Positions 1,887 to 52,178 of a DNA stretch of 64,000 nucleotides are shown here, in pieces. Origin of the DNA: an uncultured Metabacillus sp. (GTDB lineage: Bacteria > Bacillota > Bacilli > Bacillales > Bacillaceae); NCBI RefSeq assembly GCF_947503125.1, contig NZ_CANNCR010000023.1, forward strand, positions 1-64,000. The letters run 5' to 3'. The stretch's first letter is position 1. Every line of letters begins with the position of its first letter. The notes beneath the pieces were generated by a model. That model saw only the letters and a program-made list of their open reading frames with translations, ran no database searches and was not told where the DNA came from. The position numbers and the translations under genes were made by a program.

Positions 1887-2738
1887 TTACTCCCCAATAA
1901 AATCATACAAATAACCCCTATTCTCTCTCCGTACCTCCACCAACAACATAGCATATACCACTCGGTAAAAATATCCCTCAAATGTAGAGTGAATTCGATT
2001 CATTTTTTTCGCAAAAACAGTTTGTTTAAATGCATCAATAACAGTGTCAATGACATCATCTAAAAAACGCTGAAGGTTCAGTTTATGATAGGCAATTAAC
2101 ACTCGTTTCCAAAGCTTATAGATATCCATGGCACTGAAAAAAGGCTTAGCAGCTTGGACAAAATCCTTGTGAACAGATTCAGGTAGAAAGCTTGTATCTA
2201 AATGTTGGATGTCGATAGAATCAATCATATTTAACTCTGAATCATTATTGGGATGATAATCCACGCCATTTTCCGTATTACTTACGTAAGAAGGTTTTGT
2301 TTTATTCTCACAGAGTGAACTTTGCTTATTCTCTGTTTTAATAGGTGTGACAGGTGGCGTGACATCGTGGGGTGACATATTATTTTTTAATTGATCAATC
2401 GATTGAAATGGCTGGATGATCAAGAGATTTACTCCCTGCTTGCCGTTCATTCTAGCAGTTGGAATTTTTTTGATGATCCCAAGACTTTCAAGCTTTTTCA
2501 TCGCGCGAATAACCGTTCTTCTGCTTATCTCGATTGCATCAGCAATTGTGTCGTATTTGGCAAAGGATACTCCAATAACCTTCACAGAATGTCTCCATAT
2601 AAAGGTTAAAACATTTAATGTACTATCTGATAGGGATGATTTGTGCAAATATAAAAAGCCTCGAACCGCTTGATCCATTTCTTCAATTGTAGAGAAAGAT
2701 TGATAAGATTGAATGTTCTCATATGTAAACTTTTCCAT
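1887..2738 (-). CDS. Helix-turn-helix domain protein
   Basis: A 283-residue cytosolic protein. Residues about 60-95 form a winged-helix-like HTH (DTIADAIEISRRTVIRAMKKLESLGIIKK is its core, positions about 63-91), the type found in plasmid replication initiators and in MarR/GntR-like regulators. A polar linker (about 125-170) follows, then a helical C-terminal half rich in aromatic and basic residues. Similar proteins of unassigned role are common in Bacillaceae chromosomes and plasmids. Start ATG at 2738 is preceded by AAGGGGAG at ideal spacing. It is monocistronic, with no obvious partner on either side. A DNA-binding role is inferred from the HTH only. Confidence 0.75.
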   Translation of the reverse strand: MEKFTYENIQSYQSFSTIEEMDQAVRGFLYLHKSSLSDSTLNVLTFIWRHSVKVIGVSFAKYDTIADAIEISRRTVIRAMKKLESLGIIKKIPTARMNGKQGVNLLIIQPFQSIDQLKNNMSPHDVTPPVTPIKTENKQSSLCENKTKPSYVSNTENGVDYHPNNDSELNMIDSIDIQHLDTSFLPESVHKDFVQAAKPFFSAMDIYKLWKRVLIAYHKLNLQRFLDDVIDTVIDAFKQTVFAKKMNRIHSTFEGYFYRVVYAMLLVEVRRENRGYLYDFIGE

Positions 2739-2954
2739 TATGAACTCCCCTTAAAAAGTATTCTTTCACCTTCTATATACATTTTTAAGGGAGGTAGAGT
2801 AGCGTCCTTTTAAAATTTTTTTATAAAATAATTCTTTTAATAGCTTATGAACGATATGAAAAATTTGATTGCTATAATCATATGTTCACAATACTAATTC
2901 ACTAAAAGATTTATTAAAGTAAAAGAAACAATACTTATTAATGAGGTAGACAAA

Positions 2955-3317
2955 ATGTCATACATTTTTTGTACCATAAACGATATTACATTAGAAAACA
3001 ACTTAGCCATGGCCTTCTTTGATAAATTTCCTGTTACGAACGGTCATCTGCTTATTATTCCTAAACGTCATGTAGAACACTACTTTGATTTAACATCAGA
3101 AGAAAAGCAAGCAATGGATGATTTACTTCTTCAAGGAAAGGAGTTATTAGACCATCAATTTAATCCCGATGGTTATAATATAGGAATTAATAATGGGGAA
3201 GCAGCAGGACAAACAATCTTCCATGTTCATGTCCATTTAATCCCGCGTTATAAAGGAGATATGAAGGAGCCACGTGGTGGAGTAAGAGGTGTTATTCCAG
3301 AAAAAAGAATGTATTAA
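2955..3317 (+). CDS. HIT family hydrolase
   Basis: A 120-residue histidine-triad protein. The catalytic motif HVHVHLIPR is at about residues 90-98, with the substrate-binding NNGEAAGQTIFH just before it. These enzymes hydrolyse dinucleoside polyphosphates or AMP-lysine/AMP-NH2-type nucleotides in the cytosol. The length matches bacterial Hit proteins. ATG at 2955 follows GAGGTAG at 2943-2949. The MazG-like pyrophosphohydrolase starts 13 nt downstream, so the two are probably co-transcribed as a nucleotide clean-up pair. Confidence 0.92.
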   Translation: MSYIFCTINDITLENNLAMAFFDKFPVTNGHLLIIPKRHVEHYFDLTSEEKQAMDDLLLQGKELLDHQFNPDGYNIGINNGEAAGQTIFHVHVHLIPRYKGDMKEPRGGVRGVIPEKRMY

Positions 3318-3330
3318 GGGAGAAATCTAA

Positions 3331-3657
3331 ATGCCAGTTTACAATAAGCTTGTGCGAGATAAAATACCAGAAATCATCGAGAAAACAGGAAAGAAATATA
3401 AGACAAAGATTTTATCAAATGAAGAATACATAAAAGAACTGCATGCAAAAGGCTTTGAAGAACTTAAGGAGTATGTTGAAGCCAAGGATAAAGAGAGCTC
3501 ACTTGAAGAGCTTGCGGATGTTTTAGAAATAATCCATGCGTTGGCAGAGTTTCATGGCTCTTCAATCAATGAAATCGAAGAAATCAGGAGAAACAAAGCT
3601 GATGCACGCGGGGGATTTAGAGAAAAAATTTATTTAGTAGAGGTTGAGGATGAGTAA
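3331..3657 (+). CDS. MazG-like nucleoside triphosphate pyrophosphohydrolase
   Basis: A 108-residue all-alpha protein starting PVYNKLVRDKIPEII, the hallmark of small phosphoribosyl-ATP pyrophosphohydrolase-like house-cleaning enzymes. The EELKEYVE...EELADVLEIIHAL segment (about 47-72) supplies the acidic ExxE and ExxD metal ligands. The family hydrolyses NTPs, often non-canonical ones, to NMP and PPi; the substrate here cannot be told. It is placed 13 nt after the HIT gene with AAGGGAG in the gap, suggesting a two-gene operon. Confidence 0.88.
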   Translation: MPVYNKLVRDKIPEIIEKTGKKYKTKILSNEEYIKELHAKGFEELKEYVEAKDKESSLEELADVLEIIHALAEFHGSSINEIEEIRRNKADARGGFREKIYLVEVEDE

Positions 3658-4001: not shown

Positions 4002-4977
4002 TTGAAAAATCAAAATGAAGCGACTCTAAACGGAGGGACATTTGGAAGCAAAGCTAACTTTTTGTTGGTCATGATCATGATTCTAGGTGTGTTTGTAGCC
4101 ATTTTGAATGAAACATTGCTTAACGTAGCATTGCCGATTGCTTTCAACCATAGGTTTCGGGGGGATTCTGTATGGATTCAGCAGTTCCGGTGAAGGACAC
4201 GGGGGTTGGTCGAGCAATGAAGTCTTGGTTTCAATTGCAATTGGCGTTGTTTCTTTAATTCTGTTTACTTGGAGACAATTGACGATTTCACAACCCTTGC
4301 TAGATTTAAGAACATTTAAATACAACATTTTTAGAATGTCAACGTTGATCATGATGATTGTCATGATGGCGATGTTTTCTGCCATGATGCTGCTGCCAAT
4401 TTTCCTTCAGAATGCGCTAGGTTACAGTCCGTTGCAGGCAGGTTTGATCATGCTGCCAGGCGGTATTGTCATGGGGATCATGTCACCAATCACCGGTCGT
4501 TTATTTGATAAATTTGGGGCCAAGTGGCTGTCGCTTATCGGATTAGGGTTAATCGCGAATACGCTATGGCAATTTGCCTCTATTACATTGTCAACTCCAT
4601 ACAGCATGATTATGATTTTCAATACACTTCTCATGCTGGGGATTTCAATGGTCATGATGCCGATCATGACAAACGCTTTGAACGAATTGCCGCCTCCGTT
4701 ATATCCACATGGAACGGCTATTATCAGTACGCTTCAGCAGGTTGCTGGTGCTGTAGGGACAGCATTGCTTGTATCCATCATGACCAATGGTACTTCTCGA
4801 TTTTTGGAAAATACGGTGATGAAGGAAGATGAGTCTACTTTACAAATCCTAGCGATAATCTCTGGAATGAAGAGCGCGTTCTTGCTTGCATTTGGACTAG
4901 TAGCTATCGCATGGATCGTTTCCATATTTATAAAGCGGGCCGTTCCTCAAGAAATCCATTCGAAAACTACGAACTGA
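4002..4977 (+). pseudogene. DHA2-type multidrug MFS transporter, internal deletion
   Basis: The 5' part (TTG at 4002, ribosome binding site AAAGGAG) encodes the N-terminal tail and TM1 of a 14-TM drug:H+ antiporter of the LmrB/EmrB type, ending at NETLLNVALPI. The next homologous stretch starts in another frame at about 4140 with STIGFGGILYGFSS and runs through the C-terminal half (TM8-14) to TGA at 4975-4977. Motif C-like and TM10-12 segments are intact (LIMLPGGIVMGIMSPITGRL). About 170 residues between the two parts are missing, so a deletion plus frame change inactivated the gene. The downstream ORF alone could not form a working transporter. Confidence 0.85.
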
Positions 4978-43032: not shown

Positions 43033-44265
43033 ATGACAACATTTCTATTAATCATCATTTATTTGGCTTTTATCAGCTTAGGATTACCTGATTCATTGCT
43101 GGGGGCAGCGTGGCCGGTGATGCAATCGGACTATGGGGCTCCACTCGAGACTGCTGGATTCCTTTTTATGACAATTGCAGGTGGGACAATTATCTCTAGT
43201 TTAGCCAGCGGAAAGATTCTTAAACGGTTCGGCACTGGCAACGTCACATTTGTCAGCGTCCTAATGACTGCTGCTGCATTGCTGGGATTTCACTTTGCTC
43301 CTTCAATCATTTGGTTAATTATTTGTGCCATCCCACTCGGATTAGGGGCAGGAGCTGTTGATGCAGGATTAAACGATTATGTTGCTACACATTATAAGGC
43401 ACATCATATGAGTTGGTTACATTGTTTTTGGGGAGTGGGAGCTACTTTAGGTCCTATCATAATGGCTCAGTTTATTTCAGAGGGAAATTCTTGGAGAAAT
43501 GGGTATTTTGTTATTTCTGGCATTCAGTTTGCGTTAGTTGTAATCCTTCTCTTCACTTTGCCTTTATGGAACAGAGTGACCAAAAACAGCAATCTTACTC
43601 TAACTGAAGAAACAGAAGATTCAAAAGGTGTAATAAATGCTGAAGATGCTGAAGATGTAAAACCTTTACAAATTAAAGGAGTTAAACTTGCTCTTGCATC
43701 CTTCTTGTTTTATTGCGGGGTTGAAGCAACAATGGGCCTTTGGGGAAGCAGCTTCTTGGTAAATGTCAAAGGATTAAGTGCGGCAACTGCAGCTGGGTGG
43801 GTTTCCTTTTATTACGCAGGCATAACAATTGGTCGATTTATAACAGGCTTTATTACCTTTAAAATGACGAACCGTACTCTTATTCAGCTCGGACAAATAA
43901 TAGCATTAATTGGTGCCGTTATTCTAATTTTACCATTGCCGTCCATTTTCTCACTTATAGGTTTTATTATTGTTGGACTAGGATTAGCGCCGATATTTCC
44001 GTGTATGTTGCATGAAACGCCAACACGTTTTGGGAAAAAACATTCTCAGACAATCATGGGCTATCAAATGGCAATTGCTTATACTGGCACTACATTCATG
44101 CCGCCTCTTCTTGGTTTCATTGCAACTCATTCAACAATAGGAATCTTCCCATTTTGTATTGTTGTTTTTGTAGCAGCAATGCTCCTAAGTTCTCAAAAAT
44201 TAAATAGTTTACTGACAAAAAAGGCTGTATTCAAAAGGAAAGATTCAATCTCAGCAGTACTTTAA
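43033..44265 (+). CDS. MFS transporter (sugar/FucP-like group)
   Basis: 410 residues, twelve TM helices. Starts TTFLLIIIYLAFISLGLPDSLLGAAWPVM, the pattern of MFS proteins of the sugar-transporter FucP/YfkF-like branch, and contains HHMSWLHCFWGVGATLGPI in TM5. The central loop is acidic (about 195-215). Given the ROK regulator upstream, a carbohydrate or sugar-derivative substrate is the best guess. ATG at 43033 follows GGTGAGG; the GTG at 43021 would use that as coding sequence. Confidence 0.83.
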   Translation: MTTFLLIIIYLAFISLGLPDSLLGAAWPVMQSDYGAPLETAGFLFMTIAGGTIISSLASGKILKRFGTGNVTFVSVLMTAAALLGFHFAPSIIWLIICAIPLGLGAGAVDAGLNDYVATHYKAHHMSWLHCFWGVGATLGPIIMAQFISEGNSWRNGYFVISGIQFALVVILLFTLPLWNRVTKNSNLTLTEETEDSKGVINAEDAEDVKPLQIKGVKLALASFLFYCGVEATMGLWGSSFLVNVKGLSAATAAGWVSFYYAGITIGRFITGFITFKMTNRTLIQLGQIIALIGAVILILPLPSIFSLIGFIIVGLGLAPIFPCMLHETPTRFGKKHSQTIMGYQMAIAYTGTTFMPPLLGFIATHSTIGIFPFCIVVFVAAMLLSSQKLNSLLTKKAVFKRKDSISAVL

Positions 44266-44489
44266 TCAAATACGGGGTTAAATTTATCAGGCTTCGTTTT
44301 TAGTTTTATCATAAAAAACAAAACTCTTTAAATTTACTAATCATCTATTGATATTATTTTAATTGCTTATGACGAAAAAGAAGCGGCCATGTAAATTTTG
44401 TCTTATTCACCAATAATATGTTGAAATATCTTACATAACACTTTATTATATAATCTATCGAATTTAATAAATCTAACAAAGCAATAAAT

Positions 44490-44656
44490 TAAGATGCCAA
44501 GTTGGCTTAATAGGGAATCTGGTGAAATTCCGGAACTGTCCCCGCAACTGTAAGTGTTGACGAAATAAGTTATACCACTGTATAACCATCTTAAATTGGT
44601 GGTTATATGGGAAGGGCTTAAAGTAGATTGAAACACAAGTCAGGAGACCTGTCTTA
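44490..44656 (+). ncRNA. Cobalamin riboswitch aptamer 1
   Basis: It contains the AdoCbl-riboswitch core in order: GGGAATCTGGTGAAATTCC, GGAACTGTCCCCGCAACTGTAA, and the B12 box AGTCAGGAGACCTG (44639-44652). P1 can form from TAAGA at 44490 and TCTTA at 44652. It is followed 92 nt later by a terminator, so the expected mechanism is transcription attenuation when cobalamin is abundant. Confidence 0.93.
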
Positions 44657-44696
44657 GTTTATAAATTTCAGTTTCTTCGGGAGGTGAGAAGGTGAA

Positions 44697-44714
44697 ATGA
44701 TTGCAACCAAATAG
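44697..44714 (+). other. Five-codon mini-ORF inside the riboswitch expression platform
   Basis: ATG ATT GCA ACC AAA TAG follows GGGAGGTGAGAAGGTGAA. The GGGAGG segment is partly complementary to TTCATTTTACTTTTCTCC at 44731-44748, so this stretch may be part of the switching helix rather than a translated ORF. Confidence 0.3.
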
Positions 44715-44747
44715 ATTTTTTTGGTATGCCTTCATTTTACTTTTCTC

Positions 44748-44777
44748 CGCTCAGTTGAACCTGAGCGTTTTTTTTTT
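44748..44777 (+). terminator. Terminator of riboswitch 1
   Basis: CGCTCAG / CTGAGCG with a 6-nt loop and ten T. Confidence 0.92.
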
Positions 44778-44842
44778 GAATAATTAAAGTGGACATATTA
44801 TTCATAGCAATCAAATACATTTAAGATGAACAATTAAATATT

Positions 44843-45016
44843 TTAAAAGATTAGGTGTACTTCAACCTTTTGTTGAACATAAGAGGGAAGTCGGTGAAAT
44901 TCCGACACGGTACCCGCCACTGTAATGGTGAGCTTTATTACAAAATAGTCACTGATTTATATTGGGAAGACGTAATAAAGCAATGAACCTTAGTCAGGAG
45001 ACCTGCCTTTTCTTTT
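44843..45016 (+). ncRNA. Cobalamin riboswitch aptamer 2
   Basis: A second complete aptamer: GGGAAGTCGGTGAAATTCCG, ACACGGTACCCGCCACTGTAA, and B12 box AGTCAGGAGACCTGCC (44992-45007). It starts only about 65 nt after the terminator of the first switch and has different peripheral stems, so it is not a recent exact duplication. Confidence 0.93.
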
Positions 45017-45084
45017 TAACTGATACCTACGGGGATATAGGTGGATGTGTATTAGAAAATGCTATATTCATAGCATTATTTTTT

Positions 45085-45118
45085 AGTGCACCTCTATCTA
45101 TATAGGGGTGCACTTTTA
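45085..45118 (+). terminator. Terminator of riboswitch 2
   Basis: A 13-bp stem AGTGCACCTCTAT / ATAGGGGTGCACT with a 4-nt loop, followed by TTTTATTTAG. ATATAGGTGGATGTG at 45035-45049 resembles the 3' arm and could form the alternative helix. Confidence 0.88.
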
Positions 45119-45295
45119 TTTAGTTTTTAAGTTTTGGAAAGTTTTCTGTTCATTTTCTTTTGTAAGGTGTTCACTTATCTTGGTAAGTCTCTTTGGTGGA
45201 TTTGAGGTCTAACTTTTTTTGAGCTGATTCACAAACTTTTTACTTCTTTAAACAGTTAATAAAGTCTAAATATTTAATAGATTGGAAGTGTTCAG

Positions 45296-45679
45296 ATGAC
45301 AACTTGGAATTTAACCGAAACAATGCATCACGTATTAATATGCAACGGAAGCAGCTGTATGAGAAAAGGTGGCGAGGAAGTTACACAGGCAATTAGAGAA
45401 GAGATTACAGCCTTAGATTTGGACAATAGAATTCATACAACTCGAACGAGATGTAACGGGAGATGTAAAGATGCTTGTGTAGTTGTAGTCTATCCAGAAG
45501 GAGTATGGTACAAAGCTGGTACTCCTGAATTAGCAAAAGAAATTGTCCAAGGGCATCTGGTTGATGGAAAAGTCATAGAAGATAGTGTGATTTACACATA
45601 TGAACATGAGCATTTTGTAGCACCTGAACATTCAAAGTCGATCGTCGGTATAGATAAACCACAAAAAAGCAAAGTGTAA
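45296..45679 (+). CDS. cbiW: CbiW, (2Fe-2S) ferredoxin-like protein
   Basis: 127 residues with a thioredoxin-like [2Fe-2S] ferredoxin fold. The cluster Cys are in VLICNGSSCMRKGGEE (about 14-19) and TRCNGRCKDACVVVVYPEG (about 54-62). It is the first gene of the cobalamin operon, in the same place as cbiW of the B. megaterium cobI operon, and probably supplies electrons to a ring-contraction or reduction step. The function is not proven. The stop TAA overlaps the ribosome binding site of cbiH60. Confidence 0.85.
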   Translation: MTTWNLTETMHHVLICNGSSCMRKGGEEVTQAIREEITALDLDNRIHTTRTRCNGRCKDACVVVVYPEGVWYKAGTPELAKEIVQGHLVDGKVIEDSVIYTYEHEHFVAPEHSKSIVGIDKPQKSKV

Positions 45680-45691
45680 GGAGGAAATGCA

Positions 45692-47338
45692 TTGTTAGGA
45701 AAGTTACTTGTTATCGGTTTTGGCCCAGGAAGCTTTGAGCATATGACGAAAAGGGCTCAAGATGCCATACAAGAGAGCGATTGTATTATTGGTTACAAAA
45801 CCTACGTAGAATTGATTAAAGATTTATTAATAGATCAAGAGATTATTAGTACAGGGATGTCTGAAGAAGTGAGCCGTGCCCAAGCAGCCGTTCATCTAGC
45901 AGAAGAAGGAAAAACGGTAGCAGTTATTTCGAGCGGAGATGCTGGGGTATATGGAATGGCTGGACTTGTATACGAGGTGCTGATTGAAAAAGGCTGGAAA
46001 GAAGCAACAGGTGTTAGTGTTGAAGTCATTCCAGGTGTTTCAGCTATTAACTCCTGCGCTTCCTTGTTAGGGGCACCGATTATGCATGATGCTTGTACGA
46101 TAAGCTTAAGTGATCATTTAACCCCATGGGATTTAATCGAAAAAAGGATAGATGCAGCGGCACAAGCTGATTTTGTTATCACCCTTTACAATCCTAAGAG
46201 CGGAAGGCGTACAAGACAAATTCAAGAAGCACAACGAATTCTCTTAAACTACAGATCACCCGCGACTCCGGTTGGTCTTGTAAAAAGTGCATACCGTGAT
46301 CGACAACATATTGTCATCACAGATCTTAAACATATGCTAGATCACGACATCGGCATGCTTACAACTGTTGTTATCGGTAATTCAACAACTTTTTTATATG
46401 ACAATAAAATGATCACGCCTCGTGGTTATCAACGAAAATATACATTGAATTCAACTGAGCAACGATTAAAGCCTCATGAACGACTTAGACACGAAAACGA
46501 GCCTTGGGCGCTCCATAAAGGGAAAAATGATATGGTACAGCAGCCCAAAAAATGGAAAGAAAAAAACCCTGAGAGAAGCTCATTACAAATCGCTCTAGAG
46601 GCACTTCAAAAAGTGGAGAAGAATTTCGACAAATCCACGAACAATAAGCAAATTCAACAAAAACAAGTGGTAGTTAATAACCCTATTACATCCATTTTTG
46701 AATTAGCTGTAAGCCCTGGAATTGCCAATAAAAAGTTTACTCCAAAGCAAATGATGATACTTGCAGAGGTTGTTGGAGACGAAGGCTCAATGGAGTATAC
46801 ACCACACCATCAAATCATACTTAGAATTCCAACAAGTAATCCTGACTTAATCACAAAGAAACTAGATGATGTTGGGTTTCTATTAGAACCTATCGGTGAT
46901 GTGTTTCAACTAAAAGCATGTGATTTTTGTGAGGGTGAAAAAAAGGATTCGATTCCATATGCTGAAGAGCTTCATGAAAAACTAAGCGGTCTTGATTTGC
47001 CAAAAGAATTAAAGGTAGGATTTAACGGCTGTGGTATGGCATGTTTTGGAGCTGTTAATGAAGACATTGGCATTATCTTTCGAAAAGGGAAATTTGATTT
47101 ATTTTTAGGTGCGAAAACAGTTGGGAGAACCGCTCATCCAGGTCTGCCTGTTGCAGAAGGAATTGAACCTGAGAAAATTGTCGAAGTAATCGAAAAAATT
47201 GTCTATGAATACAAAGAAAAAGGCCATCCAAATGAGCGATTTTTTAAATACTTTAAGCGAGTAGGGAATGTACAAGGCTATACATATAAAGACATGGCAC
47301 CAAAGATAGAAATAGAACCAGCTCCATGTGGAGATTAA
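45692..47338 (+). CDS. cbiH60: CbiH60, C17-methyltransferase fused to an Fe-S domain
   Basis: 548 residues. Domain 1 (about 1-245) is the SAM-dependent ring-contraction C17-methyltransferase: VIGFGPGSFEHMT, AVISSGDAGVYGMAGL, VIPGVSAINSCASLLGAPIM. A linker follows, and then a nitrite/sulfite reductase-like half domain (about 335-545) with cluster Cys in LKACDFCEG and FNGCGMACFGAV. Bacillus CbiH60 binds a 4Fe-4S centre and converts cobalt-factor III to cobalt-precorrin 4. TTG start at 45692 with AAGGAGG 6 nt upstream. Confidence 0.93.
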   Translation: MLGKLLVIGFGPGSFEHMTKRAQDAIQESDCIIGYKTYVELIKDLLIDQEIISTGMSEEVSRAQAAVHLAEEGKTVAVISSGDAGVYGMAGLVYEVLIEKGWKEATGVSVEVIPGVSAINSCASLLGAPIMHDACTISLSDHLTPWDLIEKRIDAAAQADFVITLYNPKSGRRTRQIQEAQRILLNYRSPATPVGLVKSAYRDRQHIVITDLKHMLDHDIGMLTTVVIGNSTTFLYDNKMITPRGYQRKYTLNSTEQRLKPHERLRHENEPWALHKGKNDMVQQPKKWKEKNPERSSLQIALEALQKVEKNFDKSTNNKQIQQKQVVVNNPITSIFELAVSPGIANKKFTPKQMMILAEVVGDEGSMEYTPHHQIILRIPTSNPDLITKKLDDVGFLLEPIGDVFQLKACDFCEGEKKDSIPYAEELHEKLSGLDLPKELKVGFNGCGMACFGAVNEDIGIIFRKGKFDLFLGAKTVGRTAHPGLPVAEGIEPEKIVEVIEKIVYEYKEKGHPNERFFKYFKRVGNVQGYTYKDMAPKIEIEPAPCGD

Positions 47339-47357
47339 AAGGATAGGGGAGAATCTT

Positions 47358-48251
47358 ATGAAAGCCATTTTACTAGTTGGTCATGGAAGTCGAGATCCAG
47401 AAGGAAACGAGCAGGTAAGACAAACAATTGAAGAACTAAAGCCACAGCTTGATTCAGAGCTTTTAGTGGAAACCTGTTTTCTAGAGTTTGAAAGACCAGC
47501 CATTGACCAAGGTATTCAAACATGTGTAGAAAAAGGAGCAACAAGTGTTTTTGTTATCCCTCTCATGCTTCTTGCAGCAGGTCATTCAAAAATTCATATT
47601 CCAGCAGCTATTGATGAGGCAAAGGAAAAATATCCTCATGTTTCATTTACCTATGGAAGACCGTTTGGCATTCATGAAGAAACAATAGAAATTTGCAAAA
47701 GCCGCTTAGAAGATGTTGGCGAACAAATAAATGAAGAGGATCCTAATACTTCTGTCATCTTATTAGGTCGAGGTGGAAGTGATCCTGATGCGAACAGTGA
47801 TTTGTATAAAATCACTCGACTATTATGGGAAAAACTCAACTACAAATTCGTAGAACCTGCTTTTATGGGGGTAACAGATCCATTAGTTAAAGAAGGCGTT
47901 GAACGCTGTGTCAAATTAGGTGCAAAGAAAATTGTCATCTTACCTTATTTTCTTTTTACGGGAATCTTAATCAAACGTCTTGAAAACATGATTCTAGAGT
48001 TTGAGCAAGAGCATCCAGATGTTGAGTTTAAACTTGCAGGCTATTTTGGCTTTCATTCTCGGCTGAAGACCATCATAAAAGATCGTATAGAAGAGGCATT
48101 ACAAGGTGAAGTAAAAATGAACTGTGACACATGTGTTTATCGAATTGGAGCAATGGAACATATTGATCATCACCACCATCATCACGATCACGACCATGAT
48201 CATGTACATCATCACCACCATCATCATGAACATGAGGTTCAAAAAGGATGA
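47358..48251 (+). CDS. cbiX: Sirohydrochlorin cobaltochelatase CbiX with His-rich tail
   Basis: 297 residues: two tandem CbiX/chelatase domains (about 1-125 and 130-255; LLVGHGSRDPEGN with active His, LLAAGHSKIHIP, and LLGRGGSDPDAN in the second). Then comes the MxCxxC motif MNCDTC, which in B. megaterium CbiX ligates a 4Fe-4S centre, and a C-terminal tail with about 20 His (about 268-292), a probable cobalt store. It inserts Co2+ into sirohydrochlorin. ATG at 47358 follows GGGGAG. It overlaps cbiJ by 4 nt (ATGA). Confidence 0.95.
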   Translation: MKAILLVGHGSRDPEGNEQVRQTIEELKPQLDSELLVETCFLEFERPAIDQGIQTCVEKGATSVFVIPLMLLAAGHSKIHIPAAIDEAKEKYPHVSFTYGRPFGIHEETIEICKSRLEDVGEQINEEDPNTSVILLGRGGSDPDANSDLYKITRLLWEKLNYKFVEPAFMGVTDPLVKEGVERCVKLGAKKIVILPYFLFTGILIKRLENMILEFEQEHPDVEFKLAGYFGFHSRLKTIIKDRIEEALQGEVKMNCDTCVYRIGAMEHIDHHHHHHDHDHDHVHHHHHHHEHEVQKG

Positions 48252-49030
48252 TTCTCTTTTTAGCTGGTACAAGTGATGCTAGAGCTTTAGCGCTAACAAT
48301 AAAAGATTCAGGTTATGAGGTCCTCACAACAGTTGTAACAGAAAATGCCGGAAAAGAAATGAAAAAGACAGGATTAAATGTTTTGGTCGGAAGACTAACG
48401 AATGAGGATTTTGTGAAAATCATCCAAGAACAAGGCTTTAAAGCAGTGGTTGATGCAAGTCACCCTTTCGCTGAAGAAGCAAGCAAAAATGCTCTTTTAA
48501 GTGCGAAAGAAGCAGGAGTTCCTTATATCCGATATGAACGTGAGTCAAAGTTATATGAACATAAGGGAATTACAACGGTTGACACTTATGAAGATGCGGC
48601 AGAAGCAGCTGCTGAAAGAAGAGGAGTTATTATGCTCACAACAGGCAGCAAGACATTAGAAATATTCACGAGTCGATTGTTAAACCAACCAGATACCAGA
48701 GTGATTGCTCGAATGCTTCCAAGAAAGGACAATATGGAAAAATGCGAAAAGCTCGGTTTTCCTCAAAAAAATATTGTCGCCATTCAGGGTCCCTTCTCTA
48801 AGGAATTTAACTCTGCCTTATACAAGCAGTACGGAGTGACAACGATGATCACAAAAGAAAGCGGGAAGGCAGGCTCTGTTGATGAGAAATTGGAAGCTGC
48901 GCTTGAGCTTGGCATTGAAACGATCATGATTAAAAGACCGAAGATTCAATACGGAAATGTATATTCAGATTTTCAAAGTGTACTTGCTCATATTAATGGG
49001 TTATTTAAAACAAAAACTGTTGAAGGATGA
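48248..49030 (+). CDS. cbiJ: Cobalt-precorrin-6A reductase CbiJ
   Basis: 260 residues, CobK/CbiJ family: LAGTSDARALALTIKDSG at the N-terminus (NADPH-binding loop), VVDASHPFAEEASKNAL (about 74-90), IMLTTGSKTLEIF and TMITKESGKAGSVDEKLEAA near the end. It reduces the corrin macrocycle of cobalt-precorrin 6A with NAD(P)H. It is translationally coupled to cbiX. A 183-nt gap, the largest in the biosynthetic part of the operon, follows it. Confidence 0.93.
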   Translation: MILFLAGTSDARALALTIKDSGYEVLTTVVTENAGKEMKKTGLNVLVGRLTNEDFVKIIQEQGFKAVVDASHPFAEEASKNALLSAKEAGVPYIRYERESKLYEHKGITTVDTYEDAAEAAAERRGVIMLTTGSKTLEIFTSRLLNQPDTRVIARMLPRKDNMEKCEKLGFPQKNIVAIQGPFSKEFNSALYKQYGVTTMITKESGKAGSVDEKLEAALELGIETIMIKRPKIQYGNVYSDFQSVLAHINGLFKTKTVEG

Positions 49031-49213
49031 TTGGAACGGATATGCCCCTTATGTGGATGAGGTGGAACAGGTGAGACCTCCTCTGGCATATCACCAAGGA
49101 TGTTCACCGCCCGCTTACGGAAAGCGAGCTTCCTAGAGTGGATATCAATATTTCGAAATAATGCTTAAATAGAAACCAAAAAAGCTTATAGAAATGAAAT
49201 GGAGGAATAGAAA
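49031..49213. repeat. Dispersed repeat inside the cobalamin operon
   Basis: GTTCACCGCCCGCTTACGGA, then AAGCGAGCTTCCTAGAGTGG and ATATCAAT (about 49093-49149) belong to a repeat I know from many Bacillus intergenic regions (CGCCCGC...GGAAAGCGAGC...CTGGAGCGGAAATCAA). It separates cbiJ and cbiC, which otherwise would be adjacent. AATGGAGG at its right edge is the cbiC ribosome binding site. No terminator is seen. Confidence 0.6.
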
Positions 49214-49861
49214 ATGGACTTTAAAACAGAATTTAAACCACTAACTGTCCAACCTCAAGAAATTGAGGGTATCAGCTTTAACATGATTGATTCAGAGTTT
49301 GGTGAACATAGTTATACACCAGAACAGTATAAAGTTGTTCAACGTGTTGTTCACGCTTCTGCTGATTTTGAATTAGGTCATAGTATGTTGTTCCATGACA
49401 AAGCTGTTCAAGCGGGAATCGAAGCTATCCGTAAAGGCGAACAGGTATATGCTGATGTTCAAATGATTTTAGGCGGCGTAAGCAAAGGAAGAATTGAAAA
49501 GCATGGGGGAGGTGTCCATGTTTTTATTTCAGATCCCGACGTTATGGAAGAAGCAAAACGCTTAAATACGACACGAGCCATTATTTCTGTCAGAAAAGCA
49601 ATTAAACAATTTGATGGTGGTATCTATGCCATTGGTAATGCACCAACGGCTCTACTTGAATTGATTCGGTTAATTAAGGAAGGGGAGGCAAAGCCAAGTT
49701 TAGTGATTGGTTTACCGGTTGGATTTGTATCAGCACCAGAATCAAAGGAAGAATTAGCAAAATTAGATGTCCCATTCATTACGAATGTAGGCAGAAAAGG
49801 CGGTAGTACGGTAACGGTTGCTGCATTAAATGCAATCTCTTTATTAGCTGATAAGGATTAA
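49214..49861 (+). CDS. cbiC: Cobalt-precorrin-8 methylmutase CbiC
   Basis: 215 residues, precorrin-8X methylmutase fold. VVQRVVHASADFELGHSMLF (about 38-57) holds the catalytic His; DVQMILGGVSKGRIEKHG and AIGNAPTALLEL are conserved. It moves the methyl group from C11 to C12 to give cobyrinate. GGAGG lies 8 nt before ATG. cbiD starts 3 nt after its stop. Confidence 0.95.
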   Translation: MDFKTEFKPLTVQPQEIEGISFNMIDSEFGEHSYTPEQYKVVQRVVHASADFELGHSMLFHDKAVQAGIEAIRKGEQVYADVQMILGGVSKGRIEKHGGGVHVFISDPDVMEEAKRLNTTRAIISVRKAIKQFDGGIYAIGNAPTALLELIRLIKEGEAKPSLVIGLPVGFVSAPESKEELAKLDVPFITNVGRKGGSTVTVAALNAISLLADKD

Positions 49862-49864
49862 CCA

Positions 49865-50983
49865 ATGGACGGAAAAGAAAAAAAGAAGGACAAAAAGGAA
49901 ATGCGTACCGGCTATACAACTGGTGCATGTGCTACAGCAACAACAAAGGCAGCTCTAATGGCACTTATTACGGGTGAACCCCAAACGGAAAGTACGATCT
50001 TTCTACCAGTTGGAAAATTTGCAACATTTGAAATGGAGAGCTGTGTGATTGACAGTGAATATGCTGAAGCGGAAACAATTAAGGATGCTGGTGATGATCC
50101 AGATGCTACCCATGGAGCTCTGATTAAATCAACTGTTTCGTGGAGTAATAAGCCCGGTATAACACTTGATGGGGGAATTGGGGTAGGACGTGTAACAAAG
50201 GAAGGGCTTCCGGTTCCCGTTGGGGAAGCAGCGATTAATCCAGTGCCACGAAAAATGATTCTTGAAACGGCCGAAGAAGTTCTTACATCACACAATATAT
50301 CCAGAGGTATTACCATCATCATTTCCGTCCCTGATGGGGAAAAATTGGCAGAAAAAACATTAAATAAACGTCTCGGGATTATTGGCGGTATTTCCATTTT
50401 AGGAACAAGAGGAACCGTCATTCCATTTTCAACTTCGGCTTACATGGCAAGTATTGTTCAAGCAATTAGTGTAGCAAGAGCAAGTCAATGTGAGCATGTC
50501 GTAATTACAACTGGTGGACGAAGTGAGAAATACGCTATCCAGCAATATCCGGAGCTTCCCGAAGAAGCTTTTATCGAAATGGGCGACTTTGTTGGTTTTA
50601 CACTAAAACAATGCAAAAAGCAAGGGATTAAAAAAGTCTCTCTCGTTGGTATGATGGGGAAATTTTCAAAGGTCGCGCAAGGGGTCATGATGGTTCATTC
50701 CAAAAGTGCTCCTGTCGATTTCAATTTTCTTGCAAGAGTAGCAGTTGAAGCAGGAGTAACCGATGATGAACTTCTTGAAACGATTAAACAAGCTAATACC
50801 GCATCCCAAGTTGGCGATTTAATGGTAGAGAACGGGTTCAACAACTTTTTCACCCTTCTATGTACCTATTGTTGCTTATCAGGGTTAAAGGAAGTAAATG
50901 GTGGTATATCGATTGAAACAAGCTTGTACACAATGAAGGGTACATTGCTTGGAAAGGCAGGGAAGCATGAAGGAAACAATTAA
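49865..50983 (+). CDS. cbiD: Cobalt-precorrin-5B C1-methyltransferase CbiD
   Basis: 372 residues. The family signature [17 protein letters not shown] is at about 16-32, preceded by a very Lys-rich N-terminus; [12 protein letters not shown] and [20 protein letters not shown] are also typical. It methylates C1 of cobalt-precorrin 5B with SAM. ATG at 49865 uses AAGGA at the cbiC end; an internal ATG at 49901 is less well spaced. The 3' end overlaps cbiET by 17 nt. Confidence 0.94.
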
Positions 50984-52178
50984 GGTGATTGGAATAGGAG
51001 ATGATGGTAAGAAGAGTCTTCTTCCAGTCTATGAAAAGTGGATTTATGAGAGTGAAATACTAGTAGGTGGAGAGAGACAAATATCTTTCTTTCAAGATTA
51101 TTGTGGTGAGAAGGTAGTCATAAAAGGCGGACTTTCCTCACTCGTTACGTTTCTAGAAAAAGAGGAGGAACGAAACATTGTTGTCCTCGCATCAGGAGAC
51201 CCATTATTTTATGGAATTGGCAGCTATCTTGCTAAAAGACTAAATGTAGAGATTTATCCCTACTTAAGTTCCTTGCAGCAAGCTTTTGCAAAAATGAATG
51301 AAAGCTGGCAAGACGTATACATCGTTAGTGTACACGGAAGAAACATGAAAGGACTTGCTCAACGTATTAATGGCAGAGAAAAAGTAGCTCTTCTTACGGA
51401 TACTGAAAACAGTCCTTCGGTTATTGCCCGTTATTTACGGTCATTTTTCATGAATGAATATAAAGCATTTGTTGCAGAAAATCTAGGTGGTGACAATGAA
51501 CGATATGCTTTCTACGAATTAGAGGAAATGGAACATTTAGAGTTTTCACCTTTAAACATTGTTATTTTAAAAAAGATAACAGATAGCAAAACATGGTCAT
51601 TCGGAATCGATGATGAAGAATTTCATCAAAGAAAGCCTGAAAAAGGACTGCTAACGAAAAAAGAGATCCGAACTCTTAGTCTAAGTGAAATGAAGTTAAA
51701 TCAAAAAAGTATTGTTTGGGATATAGGTACCTGTACCGGTTCAGTAGCTATTGAGGCTTGCTTAATCGCCAATGAGGGGCAAGTCTATGCAATTGAAAAA
51801 AATGATCATGATTTAGAAAATTGTCGTCTAAACATGCAGAAATTTAGAACAGATTTTACCGTCGTTCAAGGGAAAGCTCCTGATAAATTAGATGAATTTC
51901 CAGATCCCGATGCTATCTTTATCGGTGGAACAGCAGGAGGGGTGCAGGAAATTTTATCCGTTTGTTGTTCTCGTTTAAGAAAAAACGGAAGAATCGTTTT
52001 AAATGCCATCACGATCGAGAATTTATCACAAGCTGTTGAGGCCTTTAAACGAAACGGTTTTGAAGTAAGCATTACCCTCGCACAAGTGTCGAGAAGTAAG
52101 CCAATTTTAAACCTTACTCGATTTGATGCTTTGAATCCAATTTATATTATCGCTGCTCACCGTAAGGAGGGAGAATAA
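50967..52178 (+). CDS. cbiET: CbiET, fused C5-methyltransferase and C15-methyltransferase/decarboxylase
   Basis: 403 residues. CbiE domain (about 1-205): [17 protein letters not shown] and [17 protein letters not shown], a tetrapyrrole methylase. CbiT domain (about 215-403): [19 protein letters not shown] (SAM motif I) and [15 protein letters not shown]. It methylates C5 and C15 and decarboxylates the acetate side chain at C12 of cobalt-precorrin 7. The fusion matches B. megaterium CbiET and aerobic CobL. The ATG at 50967 lies inside the cbiD 3' end. Confidence 0.94.

Follow-up and report, generated by a model that had tools for sequence, protein, structure and literature searches.

Two cobalamin riboswitches of separate lineages stand in series before the cbiW operon in Metabacillus, an arrangement frequent in Bacillaceae

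Why should the leader of a cobalamin operon hold two cobalamin riboswitches one behind the other, and is the pair a duplicate of one switch or a composite of two? The question is raised by a 64,000-nucleotide stretch of DNA from an uncultured Metabacillus sp. (contig NZ_CANNCR010000023.1; hereafter the window), in which every feature discussed below lies on the + strand. A preliminary description had reported two complete aptamers with B12 boxes, and both were recovered as end-to-end matches to the Rfam model RF00174 (positions 1-189 of 189): the first (RS1) at 44475-44670 with 115.7 bits (E = 1.4e-29) and the second (RS2) at 44836-45024 with 115.6 bits (E = 1.6e-29), against a gathering cut-off of 31.5 bits. 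They are the sole Rfam matches at gathering scores across the whole 64 kb window, the source genome holding six RF00174 matches in total, and the same B12 box, AGUCAGGAGACCUG, is present in each. Their Rfam ends are 165 nt apart rather than the roughly 190 nt first proposed. Between the end of the upstream transporter gene at 44265 and the start of cbiW at 45296, no + strand open reading frame of at least 60 amino acids is listed, in agreement with the earlier view that no gene separates the two. A kissing loop between L5 and L13 plays a role in cobalamin riboswitches, and the complementarity CCCG/CGGG is found in both aptamers, as judged from sequence and duplex energy. In RS1, L13 (CGGG, 44678-44681) is complementary to L5 (CCCG, 44541-44544), with -6.9 kcal/mol for the duplex of these short stretches; in RS2, P13/L13 (CCUA-CGGGGAUA-UAGG, 45026-45041) places L13 (CGGG, 45030-45033) opposite L5 (CCCG, 44913-44916), with -7.6 kcal/mol. 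The P13 pairs of RS2 are kept in all 7 aligned relatives, in which the sequence is almost invariant, so that this is hardly a test. By score and L5-L13 complementarity, both elements are assigned to the RF00174 cobalamin riboswitches and are predicted to bind a corrinoid.

The operon behind them begins with a 2Fe-2S ferredoxin-like gene (45296-45679), an open reading frame which we take to be cbiW, as in the Priestia megaterium cobI operon, and continues with cbiH, a cbiX-like gene, cbiJ, cbiC, cbiD and cbiET (45692-52178). The NCBIfam matches exceed the curated cut-off for cobJ/cbiH, precorrin-6A reductase (cbiJ), cbiD and CbiE/CbiT, and fall below it for the chelatase (cbiX), precorrin-8X methylmutase (cbiC) and the 2Fe-2S ferredoxin family of cbiW. 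By these matches the genes belong to the anaerobic B12 pathway. The CbiX-like protein has a histidine-rich C-terminal tail (48150-48251). The window also has about 144 nt extra between terminator 2 and cbiW (45118-45270), the distance from aptamer 2 to cbiW being 271 nt as against 125-127 nt in five relatives (L007, L089, L092, L094 and L095); this gap is longer in L008, L097 and L011 as well. A dispersed repeat was considered for the extra 144 nt and rejected, the only match in its own genome being itself. A plasmid search returned 26 records with partial similarity, covering 13-15% of the query among the matches listed.

Each aptamer is followed by an expression platform of its own. A simple terminator scan of 43800-46000 found three sites, compared with a mean of 1.1 in shuffled sequences, the third lying inside aptamer 2; the other two, with stems at 44748-44767 and 45085-45114, bear out the claim of a separate terminator for each aptamer. 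Terminator 1 (44748-44777) has a 7 bp stem (CGCTCAG/CTGAGCG) followed by 10 T, and at -10.1 kcal/mol it is weak, the third weakest among 41 tandem loci; in L094 and L008 the same element has 10 bp and -16.4 kcal/mol. Terminator 2 (45085-45120), of the GCACCTCTA..TAGAGGTGC family, has a 13 bp stem of -19.4 kcal/mol and a T-rich tail. In our folding models RS2 is a classical attenuator, its L13 matching L5 and its P13 3' strand continuing into a long predicted antiterminator (45035-45102), which engages 12 of the 13 paired nucleotides in the 5' arm of terminator 2. The competing structure is clear in RS2 and weak in the RS1 of the window, for which folding gives a long hairpin as putative antiterminator (44681-44752). 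There, the nascent fold pairs GAG (44681-44683) with CUC (44750-44752) of the terminator 1 5' arm, a contest of 3 bp. UGAG at 44685-44688 is likewise complementary to CUCA at 44750-44753; a leader of nrdA in the genus (L128) sets UGAG against CUCA of the terminator arm in its minimum free energy fold, and by analogy the same pairing may form in the window. The modelled plan of RS1 would thus be similar to that of RS2, and it is clear in the relatives of RS1. In the full-length minimum free energy fold of the window, terminator 1 forms without any ligand term. Because of this fold, the 3 bp contest and the 7 bp stem, RS1 of the window may be leaky or hard to relieve.

Across loci, an antiterminator competes for no less than half of the terminator 5' arm in 33 of 40 RS1 and 37 of 41 RS2 platforms, counts that include the window RS1, for which the automatic finder chose a wrong hairpin (as it probably did for the RS2 of L063 and for L076); the values given above for the window come from separate folding. 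Over all loci, the terminator state is favoured by a median of 7.5 kcal/mol for RS1 and 7.4 kcal/mol for RS2, and relief would therefore have to be kinetic. When antiterminator and terminator strands were swapped between loci, clear covariation was not found among 40 RS1 and 40 RS2 platforms: the strands are well conserved, and a locus's own pairing was the stronger in 18 of 40 and 27 of 40, respectively.

The arrangement is not peculiar to this genome. In 12 of 21 genomes of the genus (its own included), a pair of RF00174 matches lies at most 1 kb apart on the same strand, and no other such pair was found among the 111 matches listed. A close cbiW (at least 189 bits) lies directly downstream of the tandem in the same 12 genomes, 12 of 12; of the remaining nine, four have weaker cbiW matches (at most 124 bits) and five have none. 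Among named cbiW loci (the best 80 of 267, sharing 6 loci with the genus set), two aptamers stand upstream in 35, one in 39 and none in 6; L071, counted as single, may have lost a first aptamer from view because the locus starts at a contig end. All 35 named tandems are from Bacillaceae, in which they make up 35 of the 49 loci among these best 80, while a single aptamer precedes cbiW in 13 of 13 Anoxybacillaceae and 3 of 3 Fictibacillaceae loci and in 13 of the 15 from Paenibacillaceae, the other two having none. The tandem is thus frequent at the cbiW operon, especially in Bacillaceae. Elsewhere in the sample, two loci of Halalkalibacter oceani (L081 and L082) carry a c-di-GMP-II riboswitch (4288-4372) about 0.9 kb downstream of cbiW, and no cobalamin riboswitch was found in the 6.4 kb examined there. 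In an Ammoniphilus sp. (L036), a cobalamin riboswitch lies just downstream of cbiW (3425-3622), with none upstream in the stretch examined.

We propose that one transcript runs through two complete AdoCbl OFF switches in series and that the pair is composite rather than duplicated, a reading to which we give a probability of roughly 0.7, tempered by the greater stability of the terminator state and by a promoter-like site between the switches of the relative L010. Transcription would start at a sigma-A-like promoter, P1 (TTGAAA-17-TATTAT, 44421-44449), which lies 25 nt before aptamer 1 and whose score of 10.2 was equalled by 4% of 100 dinucleotide shuffles. The transcript would meet RS1 and then RS2, both of which we infer to be AdoCbl OFF switches. 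With ligand bound, L5 would dock on L13, P13 would be held, the antiterminator would be blocked and the intrinsic terminator would form; without ligand, the antiterminator would capture the 5' arm of the terminator and the polymerase would continue. It would reach cbiW only after passing both switches, and since expression would be the product of two read-through fractions, the leak would be multiplied. For two equal and independent OFF switches, this series arithmetic narrows the ligand range between 90% and 10% expression from 81-fold to 40-fold. Two aptamers of the same class with no open reading frame between them, each with its own platform, match in these respects what has been called a pseudo-cooperative tandem, and pseudo-cooperative action with lower leak is the most likely function of the pair, consistent with the steeper or less leaky repression suggested in the preliminary description.

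That the pair is composite emerges from the trees. In a tree of 144 aptamers (40 first, 41 second and 39 single aptamers of cbiW loci, and 24 from other operons; a first aptamer truncated at a contig end was omitted, and six genus loci duplicating named records were entered once), the first and second aptamers fall apart. Placing RS1 and RS2 of the window as sisters is rejected (p = 9e-44), as is a single clade of all tandem aptamers (p = 1.5e-55); by sequence, the two do not appear as each other's nearest kin, as a local tandem duplicate would. A tree of 204 rows also takes in the remaining aptamers of the genus, 84 of 87, those omitted scoring 43-48 bits in G016 and G017 and 118 bits in G020. 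Here RS1 and RS2 lie on opposite sides of a split with support 100/99, which strongly supports the preliminary description in that they are not a recent duplication. The RS1 side (74 rows) contains the first aptamers with one exception (39 of 40), the full set of 21 NrdA-labelled aptamers, 10 cbiW switches that stand alone, three of cbiH and one labelled BtuF; on the RS2 side (130 rows) are the second aptamers without exception (41), the remaining 29 singles, and those of metE, cobO, btuF and others. The gene labels come from tblastn searches with six reference proteins taken from these genomes (by Pfam name the ribonucleotide reductase large and small chains, cobalamin-independent methionine synthase, CobO, a periplasmic binding protein and a tetrapyrrole methylase) together with the CbiW of the window; 25 of the 84 genus aptamers have no label, eight of these for short downstream sequence. 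The 21 NrdA aptamers, all those sampled in the genus, form one clade (94/90). RS2 groups with the switches that stand alone before cbiW in Anoxybacillaceae and Paenibacillaceae, the branch of RS2 and single cbiW switches comprising 69 rows with support 99/89 in the smaller tree and a like group having 83/43 in the larger. The split is mirrored by one base next to L5, which is A or U in 70 of 73 rows on the RS1 side (the other three unmatched; L139 set aside) and C in 129 of the 130 others; in the window it is A44546 in RS1 (CGC-A-ACUG) and C44918 in RS2 (CGC-C-ACUG).

The platforms, as far as their sequences can tell, agree with the aptamer lineages. Leaders of nrdA typically start their platform with UUUCUUCGGGGACUGAGAAGAUGAAACGAU and RS1 with UUUCUUCGGGAGGUGAGAAGGUGAAAUGAU, so that the P13/antiterminator start looks much the same in both. 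The AUCCGCUCA..GAGCGG terminator type of RS1 relatives is found in the nrdA leaders L128 and L136, two of the seven examined, and not in the other five. The nrdA-leader riboswitch of the genus thus shares with RS1 its aptamer lineage and this platform start, to which L128 and L136 add the terminator type; unlike RS1, it stands alone, before ribonucleotide reductase genes. The platform of RS2, in turn, opens with ACCUACGGGGAUAUAGGU, which resembles the ACCUACGCGAAAUAGG of the metE type, and has the same GCACCUCUA..UAGAGGUGC terminator as the lone cbiW switch of Anoxybacillaceae. We take RS2 to be, most probably, the switch native to the operon, and RS1 an nrdA-leader-type module probably added in front of it; since the tree is unrooted, the transfer may also have run the other way, from cbiW to nrdA. 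A single clade for all RS1-type aptamers before cbiW (39 RS1 and 10 single) is not rejected (p = 0.0585), and a clade of RS1 without those 10 singles is (p = 0.00084), but this grouping omits kin of RS1; RS1 may have been recruited before cbiW once or twice.

It is tempting to speculate that switches from two lineages also respond differently. RS1, as nrdA-type, and RS2, as cbi-type, might differ in affinity or corrinoid preference, and the pair would then act as a gate with two thresholds or two effectors. Apart from the well-supported split between the lineages, the marker base next to L5, P13/L13 and the terminators all differ between the two; relatives of RS1 serve nrdA and the metE aptamers fall on the side of RS2; and corrinoid selectivity varies among cobalamin riboswitches, according to the accessible text of PMC9600662. 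Against this, both match the same class from end to end, and no tie links the marker base to ligand choice. We hold this gate as a tentative possibility. Its evolutionary form, a composite two-threshold sensor built from an nrdA-type lineage and the operon's own, whose second switch was recruited, kept across many genera and halved in some, is conceivable to the same limited degree.

The series reading also depends on a single transcript, as the preliminary description assumed when it stated that a polymerase must pass both switches. Here, the distribution of promoters is informative. In a scan weighted by sigma-A consensus strengths, with 100 shuffles per locus, 18 of 40 tandem loci have a sigma-A-like site before aptamer 1 at p <= 0.05, with TTGAAA in 12 of them, as against 2 of 41 (L010 and L025) between the switches, the number expected by chance. 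Between the switches of the window, the best such site does not outscore shuffles (p = 0.19) and shares sequence with terminator 1. Moreover, the distance from the terminator 1 stem to aptamer 2, measured on hairpins, is 2-21 nt in 10 of 41 loci, too short to leave room for an internal promoter. In the window it is 68 nt, for which reason a weak internal promoter is possible there. Passage through both switches is thus favoured over the tandem loci as a set, and it is likely, if less firmly so, in the window itself, given these 68 nt, the conserved spacer block described below and the site found in L010.

If a promoter in the spacer started most of the cbiW mRNA, RS2 alone would govern the operon and RS1 would just trim the read-in from P1. 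A block of the spacer just before aptamer 2 (44785-44832; TGGACATAT ... TAATACGTTAAGATGAG type) is conserved among close relatives, with a mean pairwise identity of 0.73 over 7 loci, compared with 0.55 for the preceding 32 nt and with a similar value, 0.76, for the 40 nt that precede cbiW. It has a TGGACA-17-TAATAC-like spacing and could be a promoter. In Metabacillus bambusae (L008), where the gap between the switches is 516 nt, the block still adjoins aptamer 2, and a further member of the genus, L010, carries TTGATA-17-TATCAT in the stretch between its two switches (shuffle p = 0.02). Set against the chance-level count over all loci, the poor site of the window and the loci without room, these points leave such a second transcript unlikely, and an internal sigma-A promoter was rejected as a general feature. 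By eye, the enlarged spacer of L008 (2003-2520) contains two apparent copies of a repeat-like element, and a similar element lies behind its terminator 2. A candidate outer helix in which the spacer block would pair with the strand that follows P13 of RS2 (7 pairs by RNAalifold) was also considered as an explanation of the block; it has one compensatory change, in the window, and one broken pair in each of 2 of the 7 sequences. It was discarded as generally no better than shuffled upstream sequences (median p = 0.425; p <= 0.05 in 2 of 41 loci).

A single transcript through two switches in series remains our preferred reading, and the losses seen at other loci can be set beside it. In Priestia megaterium CH447_14T (L019), an intact RS1-type aptamer is followed by a decayed second one (2740-2920) with the B12-box remnant AGUUUAGGAGACCAGCC, and 2600-3010 gives no RF00174 match at E <= 1; in P. 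aryabhattai (L033) both switches are present. An RS1-type switch stands alone at 10 cbiW loci. That one switch is enough and the other a relic kept by chance on its way out would suit these loci and the weak terminator 1 of the window, and is nevertheless the most doubtful of the readings considered, since in the 35 named tandems uncut first aptamers (101.8-127.5 bits) and second aptamers (81.5-129.8 bits) score in ranges similar to that of single ones (97.5-135.6 bits), and each of the 12 genomes of the genus that have a close cbiW keeps both switches despite changes in spacers and peripheral stems. The exception among the first aptamers comes from Bacillus sp. V5-8f (L027, 2240-2861), where the tree places both aptamers with the second type and terminator 1 is of the GCACCCC type; this first aptamer is likely a local duplicate or replacement.

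How does the pair compare with what is known? The source cited for tandem AdoCbl riboswitches as reference 25 of PMC9481103 is probably Sudarsan 2006. Tandem AdoCbl riboswitches with separate platforms, termed pseudo-cooperative, appear in the accessible text of PMC9481103 (Table 1 and 26 doublets) and also in that of PMC2258182. The former share with the window two AdoCbl-class aptamers in one 5' leader, own terminators and no gene between, and the present loci may be among them; unlike for the window pair, mixed ancestry is not mentioned in the part of that article available. According to a 2007 survey, under 1% of UTRs carry multiple TPP or AdoCbl aptamers (PMC2258182, accessible part), and an article on contiguous riboswitches lists cobalamin among the classes with characterised contiguous copies (PMC12452182, accessible part). 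Cobalamin tandems are indeed less known than those of glycine, as had been stated, though the kind is already published. The example in the accessible text of PMC12452182 has a cobalamin riboswitch and then two SAM riboswitches before hom, whereas the window has a cobalamin pair before cbiW. Similarly, the tandem TPP riboswitches of tenA in Bacillus anthracis (Welz and Breaker 2007, as cited in the accessible text of PMC12121620 and PMC9481103) form a same-class series in which each member is able to terminate, with a ligand that differs from the presumed corrinoid of the window. The SAM-I/AdoCbl tandem of metE in Bacillus clausii, as described in the available part of PMC9481103, places two OFF switches in series, one of them cobalamin, like the window; unlike the window, it joins two ligand classes in a NOR gate.

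A further known system is the cobalamin riboswitch of the P. megaterium cobI operon, which belongs to the same operon as that of the window and whose intact aptamer in CH447_14T is of the RS1 type. That operon is B12-sensitive at the nM level, and its leader is described as one riboswitch with a terminator (both from the accessible text of PMC8390425); in CH447_14T there is a decayed second. In the open-licence PMC text searched, no description was found of a tandem at cbiW, of its frequency in Bacillaceae or of its mixed ancestry. Tandem AdoCbl riboswitches are thus a published kind, to which the present work adds the frequency at cbiW, the separate lineages and the half-decayed P. megaterium relative.

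Homotypic tandems are usually explained as a steepening of the response. A tandem of mixed lineage, with natural single and half-decayed relatives at the same operon, lends itself to comparisons that ask what is gained by a second switch. This is relevant to B12 production strains, such as P. megaterium, for which cobalamin riboswitches have been called the major engineering bottleneck (PMC8390425, accessible text).
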